Source of the DNA: Bacteroidales bacterium
Lineage (GTDB): Bacteria > Bacteroidota > Bacteroidia > Bacteroidales > UBA932
Assembly: GCA_017544265.1 (NCBI GenBank)
Contig: JAFYEM010000043.1
Location: 1-59,795 of the forward strand
Reading direction: 5' to 3'
Length of the DNA stretch: 59,795 nucleotides
The position numbers were made by a program, and so were the translations under genes. The notes under the pieces are model-generated. The model made no database searches. It was not told where the DNA came from and saw only the letters and a list, made by a program, of their open reading frames with translations. Shown one piece after another: positions 1-440 of this stretch (positions within the stretch are counted from its first letter, which is position 1; every line of letters begins with the position of its first letter).

Positions 1-164
1 ATACAGTCGAGCAGCGCATGAAGGCTGTCCACATCCAGGTACTTGCACATCTTCTTCCTGTCGAAGACCAGTTCTCCGAAATAATCGGAGGTTTTGCCTG
101 CGGGAATCGAGGCTGGAACTTCTTTCCTGATGAAGGACTCCTTGACTAAATCAGATCTGTCCAT
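1..164 (-). CDS. glnN: Type III glutamine synthetase, N-terminal fragment (runs off the window)
   Basis: Only the first 54 codons are inside the window. The ATG at 162-164 opens a frame that stays open to base 1. The segment SDYFGELVFDRKKMCKYL (about residues 26-43) resembles from memory the conserved N-terminal stretch of Bacteroides type III glutamine synthetases, which reads SDYYASHVFDRKKM. These large enzymes make glutamine from glutamate, ammonia and ATP in the cytoplasm. No catalytic residue is visible in this fragment, so the call rests on the N-terminal signature alone. A structured RNA with a strong promoter and an intrinsic terminator lies directly upstream on the same strand, and no good promoter is visible between that terminator and the ATG. 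Expression may therefore depend on read-through. Confidence 0.65.
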   Translation of the reverse strand, partial: MDRSDLVKESFIRKEVPASIPAGKTSDYFGELVFDRKKMCKYLDVDSLHALLDC

Positions 165-222: not shown

Positions 223-254
223 AAAGAGGCTGAGCCCCATGGGCCCAGCCTCTT
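223..254 (-). terminator. Intrinsic terminator between the structured leader and glnN
   Basis: Read on the minus strand, arms at 241-254 and 223-237 form a 14-bp stem with one G-U pair and a 3-base loop, followed by the T-rich run TTTCTTTTTC. It lies 58 bases before the glnN ATG and downstream of the promoter at 411-440. Confidence 0.85.
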
Positions 255-405
255 ACTATCTTTGAATTTTATTTGCCTCTATTACAGGATGCGCAGCATA
301 AGGCTGGAGTTATACACACGCAGAAGCAACCGGAACCTGCTGGTTCCAGGACTGCTGCTGGGAGAAACTATTTAGGGTGTATAACACTGCGTTCCTTTTC
401 TTTTC
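223..405 (-). ncRNA. Structured leader or small RNA upstream of glnN (candidate attenuator)
   Basis: The minus strand between the promoter at 411-440 and the terminator at 223-254 has no convincing ORF but strong pairing potential. GTTATACAC (385-377) pairs perfectly with GTGTATAAC (317-309). Inside it, GGAACC (347-342) pairs with GGTTCC (337-332) around the tetraloop AGCA. Outside it, CGCAG (near 391-387) can pair with CTGCG (near 296-292), leaving a bulge that contains CCAGCCT (307-301). That bulge is complementary to AGGCTGG (251-245) in the 5' arm of the terminator, so it could act as an antiterminator. A free-standing 6S-like regulatory RNA ending at the terminator is the main alternative. 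The base pairing is seen in the sequence; the function is inferred. Confidence 0.6.
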
Positions 406-410
406 GGGGT

Positions 411-440
411 GCAAGTTACGCAAAAATTTTAAAAAGCAAA
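411..440 (-). promoter_or_regulatory. Bacteroidota promoter of the glnN leader RNA
   Basis: On the minus strand, TTTG (440-437) is separated by 18 bases from TAACTTGC (418-411), close to the TTTG/TAnnTTTG consensus. Transcription would start near 405. Confidence 0.65.

Follow-up and report, generated by a model that had tools for sequence, protein, structure and literature searches.

Glutamine is a central nitrogen signal of bacteria and is usually read by PII, uridylyltransferase, GlnR, NtrC or riboswitches. Leader-peptide attenuators of the trp, his and leu type have been described in Proteobacteria and Actinobacteria; they share a short ORF with control codons, an antiterminator, an intrinsic terminator and a cognate gene (PMC1183508, PMC1262725; papers are cited here by PMC number and from excerpts). 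Cognate codons also mark uORFC-8-2 (Cys codons, cysS) and uORFC-13-1 (Phe codons, aroF), two uORF attenuators that were found computationally, like those reported here (PMC8632094). Glutamine synthetase genes of cyanobacteria are likewise controlled by a cis RNA, the glutamine riboswitch glnA RNA (RF01739; PMC2864571, PMC8632094), and Bacteroidetes are represented among the cis-regulatory RNAs of Rfam by Bacteroid-trp RNA (RF01692; PMC2864571). Leader-like sORFs of B. thetaiotaomicron are mentioned with their codons unnamed in the excerpt of PMC7366714, and Shewanella glnS is given as a 'tRNA synthetase leader' in that of PMC2659441. A search of the open-access literature, with subscription literature outside its scope, found no Gln- or Asn-codon leader-peptide attenuator, including in the excerpts of PMC8632094, PMC1262725, PMC1183508, PMC2659441, PMC7366714, PMC5552732, PMC2864571 and PMC2965389.

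Here we analyse a leader upstream of glnN, encoding a type III glutamine synthetase (GSIII), in a window of 59,795 nucleotides that represents a whole contig of a gut bacterium of the Bacteroidales. Very probably it is a ribosome-mediated transcription attenuator of the trp/his type, which senses glutamine, and in many copies also asparagine, through its codons. In contrast to the trp, his and leu attenuators, it has Gln (and Asn) codons, belongs to nitrogen-assimilation genes, occurs in Bacteroidales and starts with GTG in 21 of the 83 leaders collected. It differs from uORFC-8-2 and uORFC-13-1 in amino acids, genes and phyla. In RF01739 the RNA binds glutamine, whereas here codons would be read, and neither the window nor 16 loci gave a match to that family.

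Organization of the leader upstream of glnN

The window locus is read on the minus strand and comprises the following elements.

437..440, minus: -33 element TTTG of a sigma-ABfr-like Bacteroidota promoter, from sequence
411..418, minus: -7 element TAACTTGC, which fits TAnnTTG and not the full TAnnTTTG; 18-base spacer to the -33 element
near 404, minus: expected transcription start, placed from the -7 element
310..387, minus: leader ORF of 25 codons, VLYTLNSFSQQQSWNQQVPVASACV, GTG start at 387, TAA stop at 310-312
337..360, minus: span of the five CAG control codons read from the ORF (358-360, 355-357, 352-354, 340-342, 337-339)
309..385, minus: P1 helix, nine-bp stem GTTATACAC / GTGTATAAC (377-385 with 309-317), from sequence
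332..347, minus: small hairpin GGAACC/GGTTCC over the second Gln pair, from sequence and fold
301..307, minus: CCAGCCT, putative antiterminator 5' half, two bases past the leader stop codon
245..251, minus: AGGCTGG, complement of CCAGCCT in the terminator's 5' arm, from sequence
224..254, minus: predicted intrinsic terminator, a hairpin of 14 bp (-26.1 kcal/mol) with a U-rich tract behind it
1..164, minus: 5' end of glnN, ATG at 164

The initial annotation had described a TTTG-N18-TAACTTGC promoter, a rod-like RNA with the 9-bp stem and the GGAACC/GGTTCC hairpin, a 14-bp terminator and the complementarity of CCAGCCT to the terminator's 5' arm, and all of these were recovered at their places. 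The rod consists mostly of the leader ORF (310-387), which that annotation had not recorded; P1 pairs the first leader codons with the last codons and the stop codon. The Bacteroides sigma-ABfr consensus is TTTG / TAnnTTTG (PMC7366714). Of the 83 leaders, 70 have an element of the form TAnnTTG or TAnnTT(T/A)G at a distance of 5-60 nt before their start, compared to 6 of 82 control stretches. No such element was found between 222 and 165 and therefore a second glnN promoter of known type is not evident, as had been claimed before. The transcript 210-405 was predicted to fold with -70.7 kcal/mol compared to -48.6 +/- 4.2 for shuffled sequences (z -5.3, 0/200).

The glnN ATG follows the terminator hairpin by 59 bases; the gene is incomplete, as the contig breaks off at base 1. 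By itself, the 54-aa piece in the window matched no Pfam family. Its N-terminus matches that of longer proteins from relatives, one of which (L007; L numbers denote loci) was assigned to PF12437 GSIII_N (E 1.4e-73). The leader has five Gln and two Asn codons, i.e. five CAG among 25 codons before a glutamine synthetase gene. When the window was sampled at random in 3000 stretches of 420 bases, seven Asn or Gln within 14 residues were also reached in 20 cases and never exceeded. The Asn/Gln content of this one leader is thus not decisive, and the case rests on relatives.

The leader reading frame in relatives

GSIII genes were detected in 83 of 121 genomes of the genus (E 1e-100). Upstream regions were read for 70 of the 104 GSIII matches listed, those omitted being mostly near 57% identity; 69 were long enough, and 25 of these contained an Asn/Gln-rich leader, e.g. 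MINLFVNNNSNQQNQNQQQALRLLRVLFPVVRHK (L024) and MSFVVLNNNNQNNNQNQQVLIASV (L035). The first relatives found, L002 and L003, share the reading frame of the window leader, with glnN immediately behind it. Among 80 named relatives, a GSIII leader was seen only in L078 (RGIG8086, water-buffalo rumen) and L085 (RGIG6839, sheep rumen), and an Asn-only leader in L081 (RUG476); in this set L077 offers only 61 and L119 only 188 upstream bases, too few for a judgement, and L084 is partly masked. The Prevotella-labelled loci of the set, including L119 with its short upstream region, yielded no leader. The same holds for 29 further GSIII upstream regions, a few of them of the same genus (L157-L185; 0/29). 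Placement of the relatives' genomes in the Bacteroidales rests on the titles of named relatives.

Thirteen aligned leaders were used for a coding test. All 15 gap runs inside the leader ORF measured 3 nt; between the stop codon and the terminator end, 8 of 56 were multiples of three. For codon pairs with a single difference, the synonymous share was 182/477 in frame versus 152/660 and 109/511 in the other frames. The start codon, GTG or ATG, stands at the same place among relatives. By this comparison, the leader is coding.

For the wider analysis 83 distinct leaders were available (84 minus one duplicate); near-identical ones were kept and clustering at 80% gave 72 clusters. The leader of L085 was entered with a start shorter than its first ATG. 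Gln and Asn made up 874 of 2438 leader codons versus 510 of 7200 in 15 GSIII genes; as leaders had been picked by reading Asn/Gln-rich frames, this enrichment is partly selected, and the gene neighbours are unselected. At least eight Asn or Gln in 14 residues were present in 71/83 leaders, and at least five Gln in 66/83. With regard to codon choice, Asn was mostly encoded by AAT in the leaders (280/412) and by AAC in the GSIII genes (266/320; AAT 54), and Gln in the leaders was almost only CAG (455/462). Comparison of the loci thus established the ORF, the Asn/Gln enrichment, the pairings described below and the gene neighbours at the level of sequence.

Conservation of the antiterminator, terminator and P1 helix

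Search model R1 was built from 13 glnN leader sequences and comprised the terminator and P1 only; the antiterminator helix was left out. The resulting alignment (A2) had 99 rows, and removal of 21 antisense rows, the cut sequence L226 and four duplicates left 73 unique sequences. All six antiterminator pairs formed in 63 of these 73, which had been aligned without that helix, compared to a mean of 55.4 and a maximum of 61 in 5000 partner permutations. When the antiterminator was slid by 1-6 positions, 0-2 of 73 sequences were fully paired. Hence, the termination switch on glnN that the initial annotation had proposed gains support from relatives, in which the CCAGCCT/AGGCTGG pair is kept beside glnN and also beside related genes. 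In the aligned register, 10/73 sequences were not fully paired, and out-of-register complementarity was also present, for instance ACGGCCT/AGGCCGT in L063. Compensated variants were few in number (e.g. TCAGTC/GGCTGA, CCGGCC/GGCCGG and TCCGGC/GCCGGA).

A further alignment (A3, 61 sequences) had 99.1% of antiterminator cells paired versus 0.9-51.6% in slid positions. Five double-changed cells were counted, compared to 1.0 by shuffling (0/500); they fell on only two of the six pairs, and the slid control at -3 had eight. Two of five measures lay within the shuffles, namely double-changed pairs (reached by 88/500) and pair types (346/500). Covariation of the antiterminator itself therefore appears modest. 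In A3, 10 of the 13 terminator pairs were changed on both sides (93% paired), as were all six P1 pairs (79% paired, 61 sequences); A3 had been fitted to both helices.

At least six contiguous complementary bases between the leader end and the terminator arm were found in 78/83 leaders and in 68 of the 72 clusters at 80% identity. Shuffled leader ends reached this in 49.1 of 83 on average (maximum 59, 100 rounds), and swapped arms in 70.5 (maximum 77, 100 rounds), a small margin below the observed 78. The partner-swap score likewise averaged 8.85 versus 8.32 after swapping (maximum 8.70 of 200); this margin is small because most arms share GGCTGG. The best complementary run was outside the arm core in 6/83 leaders, and in L236 (+) automatic placement let the terminator begin 2 bases before the stop codon end. 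The antiterminator energy is telling for the set only, not sequence by sequence, with 7 of 27 single-sequence energies reached by at most 25 of 500 shuffles.

The tail after the hairpin is of interest with regard to the step at which the leader acts. Fewer than five T in the eight bases following the hairpin were present in 21/83 leaders, which would fit an action at translation or by ribosome release, in which case the hairpin would serve RNA stability only. We consider this improbable, as 62/83 leaders have at least five T in these eight bases and the complementary partner is located in the terminator's 5' arm, both of which argue for control of termination.

Leaders upstream of other nitrogen genes

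A scan of 400 genomes of the genus with R1 gave matches in 111 (E <= 0.01, antisense and weak matches included), and 38 of 40 fetched loci contained a leader (L252 and L255 did not). Although built from glnN leaders only, R1 also matched before PII-amtB, asnB, gltB, purF and pyrG. A second search model, R2, covered 160 genomes of the genus with at least 90% completeness and matched 47 (E 1e-4). Twenty R2 loci comprised 14 Gln/Asn leaders, one Trp leader (L330), one locus cut by the contig end (L312) and four non-leaders (L324, L325, L327, L328); 14 others (L297-L310) comprised six Gln/Asn, two His and five Trp leaders and one locus with none. Most of the weaker R1 and R2 matches were left out of reading. 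The loci with Gln/Asn leaders before further genes or in further genera were as follows.

PII (R1): L223, L234, L235, L237, L249, L253
asnB (R1): L230, L240, L243, L244, L248, L251, L254, L236 (+)
gltB: L241
purF: L231
pyrG: L232
second PII paralog (R2): L316, L319, L323, L326, L329
porin-like gene directly before PII (R2): L315
circularly permuted ATP-grasp gene (R2): L318, L321, L322
glnN, PII and porin-like gene in g38 and g26, two genera of the family (R2): L297-L302

Sorted by gene, the 83 leaders precede glnN (52), PII (9), the PII paralog (5), asnB (9), the ATP-grasp gene (3), the porin-like gene (2), gltB (1), purF (1) and pyrG (1); one of the 52 glnN labels is uncertain since the contig of L225 ends. 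For each gene, one or two of the proteins were checked, and the remaining ones were assigned by eye on the basis of the N-terminus. Cut-offs were exceeded for PyrG, asparagine synthase B, P-II, HisG and CP_ATPgrasp. The cut proteins PurF, glutamate synthase and TrpB-like did not reach the whole-protein cut-off of NCBIfam. An ammonium transporter (PF00909) follows PII in L237 and L323, and ORFs similar to it follow PII in L301, L302, L299, L234 and L253.

In two genomes, glnN and a divergent asnB each have their own Asn/Gln leader (L067, G119:C44; L236, G326:C95). The porin-like protein of 229-230 aa lies between leader and PII in L315 (382-1071, plus strand) and L299 (1715-2401, plus strand); it had no Pfam or NCBIfam match and is labelled by eye. 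An ORF similar to it comes after PII in L316. The ATP-grasp protein after the Asn/Gln leader carries PF14403/PF04174 (checked for L318), and the leader before its gene suggests a link to nitrogen metabolism.

Asparagine could contribute to the signal. In the 83 leaders, AAT (280) and AAC (132) stand beside CAG (455) and CAA (7), and before asnB Asn outnumbers Gln on average (7.3 vs 4.8), as it also does before the ATP-grasp gene, the porin-like gene, gltB, purF and the second PII paralog. Four of 83 leaders are Asn-rich with at most one Gln codon (L081 glnN, L067 asnB, L241 gltB, L231 purF), and Asn may therefore be an additional or an alternative signal. On this reading, the same attenuator would respond mainly to asparaginyl-tRNA or to both tRNAs, and the Asn and Gln codons would report the amide-nitrogen state. 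We rate it as possible, on the doubtful side: before glnN the mean of Gln is higher than that of Asn (5.9 vs 3.7), the window leader has five Gln and two Asn, and the 66 leaders with five or more Gln point to glutamine.

Outside the family, no leader was accepted in 29 PII regions and 29 order-wide R2 loci; L081 and L085 are not assigned to a GTDB family. Including L263 of the genus, 0 of 30 PII loci read had a leader (L268 comprises 119 bases). A candidate in L348 has eight Asn or Gln in 14 residues, but its ORF starts with TTG and runs into the next gene, and it was judged to be chance.

Within this Bacteroidales family, we find it reasonably likely that Gln/Asn leader attenuators form a distributed nitrogen regulon, in which glnN, PII-amtB (in some cases with the porin-like gene), asnB, gltB, purF, pyrG and the ATP-grasp gene all respond to charging of the tRNAs of amide amino acids. 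If this is true, ribosome stalling would do here what NtrC- or GlnR-type proteins do elsewhere, nitrogen-use control in some gut and rumen Bacteroidales would be explained, and, as far as the literature search shows, Gln and Asn would join the amino acids with leader-peptide attenuators. In Prevotella ruminicola 23, much the same set of genes (amtB, glnK, glnN-2, gltBD, asnB) changes strongly with ammonium according to the excerpt of PMC5552732, the direction being inconsistent; the words 'promoter' and 'attenuat' are absent from the main text of this paper.

His- and Trp-codon leaders and comparison with Rfam

The R2 matches with other codons served as an internal control. In genus g35 of the same family, His-codon leaders precede hisG in L304 (MQSYIINNAIHHHHHLHHFGRLRLLYVYS) and in L309. 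In both loci the leader and a predicted terminator stand directly before hisG (L304, 1501-1652; L309, 1501-1656; plus strand), and the L304 leader contains HHHHHLHH. Trp-codon leaders with FFFWRAWFWQ or FFFWRTWFWQ were found before a trpB-like gene in genus g38 (L303, L305, L306, L307, L310, L330), and these loci carry a predicted terminator before the TrpB-like gene as well. A constant layout in which the codons vary with the downstream gene favours codon reading. The Bacteroid-trp family RF01692, which we take to be a Trp-codon leader, gave no match to the scanned Gln/Asn leaders or to the one Trp leader included in the scan, that of L305 (E 0.1).

At the gathering threshold, Rfam assigned only two tRNAs in the whole window. 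At E up to 10, positions 1-1200 gave seven chance families, and RF01739, RF01704, T-box and 6S were not among them. Sixteen loci searched at E 0.1 gave tRNA, an overlapping weaker match and, at L309, the Phe and Thr leader families below gathering score; no glutamine riboswitch or T-box was detected. The RF01685 search of the window's own genome gave no match, and its controls likewise gave none.

These data bear on the initial interpretation as a riboswitch-like switch with a 6S-like RNA as the alternative. Its promoter-driven leader, premature terminator and antiterminator stand. A metabolite riboswitch for glutamine or ammonia, with an incidental ORF, would account for the structured leader and the mutually exclusive terminator and antiterminator, and glutamine riboswitches do control glutamine synthetase in cyanobacteria (PMC8632094). 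We regard it as very unlikely in view of the conserved reading frame with codon-sized indels, the strong Asn/Gln codon enrichment, the lack of an Rfam match and the finding that, where such a model matches before hisG or the trpB-like gene, the leaders contain His or Trp codons instead. A free-standing 6S-like RNA lying before glnN by chance would explain why the RNA folds as a rod and has a promoter and a terminator to itself; we give this hardly any credence, since relatives retain the element before glnN or other nitrogen genes and it has a conserved ORF inside, and the Rfam search of the window returned no 6S match. Taken together, the conserved Asn/Gln-codon ORF, the 3-nt gaps and the lack of an Rfam family indicate that the sensor is most likely a translating ribosome.

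A model of attenuation at glnN

From this arrangement we infer translation of the leader, stalling, read-through and charged tRNA as the signal. RNA polymerase would start near 404 and make the leader, and a ribosome would start at GTG 387 and read the 25-codon peptide, in which five codons specify Gln. With Gln-tRNA well charged, this ribosome would reach the stop codon (310-312) and cover CCAGCCT just behind it; the terminator (224-254) would then form and transcription would end before glnN. Poor charging of Gln-tRNA would instead stall it on the CAG codons 30-53 nt upstream. In this case CCAGCCT would remain free and pair with AGGCTGG before the 3' arm of the terminator is made, and polymerase would read into glnN. 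Low charging of Gln-tRNA, perhaps of Asn-tRNA, thus most likely arrests the ribosome on the leader and permits transcription of glnN, and the cell probably makes glutamine synthetase only when its ribosomes are short of glutamine.

The antiterminator duplex (-15.7 kcal/mol) is weaker than the predicted terminator (-26.1), and the choice must therefore be kinetic. When the ribosome was placed on the Gln codons and the terminator 3' arm was still unmade, the antiterminator had a pairing probability of 0.89-1.0. For a ribosome at the stop codon, the antiterminator segment was taken as covered, assuming a footprint of 12 nt. The antiterminator was also predicted without any ribosome (P 0.99), and an untranslated RNA would therefore read through. 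This predicted default differs from the E. coli trp operon, which terminates (PMC1183508). P1 excludes CCAGCCT, and the segment 1:2 pairing that frees the terminator in an untranslated RNA is accordingly absent; we treat this pairing as a trait of E. coli trp, not as defining for the wider attenuator class.

Of 21 genomes searched, 16 gave a GlnRS match that exceeded the curated cut-off, which makes direct glutamine charging likely in the genus; the window genome (G000), an incomplete assembly, gave a weak match only. Adjoining the leader, positions 557-1645 on the minus strand of the window encode a protein that combines GH11 xylanase and Big_2 domains, which points to an organism degrading plant fibre.
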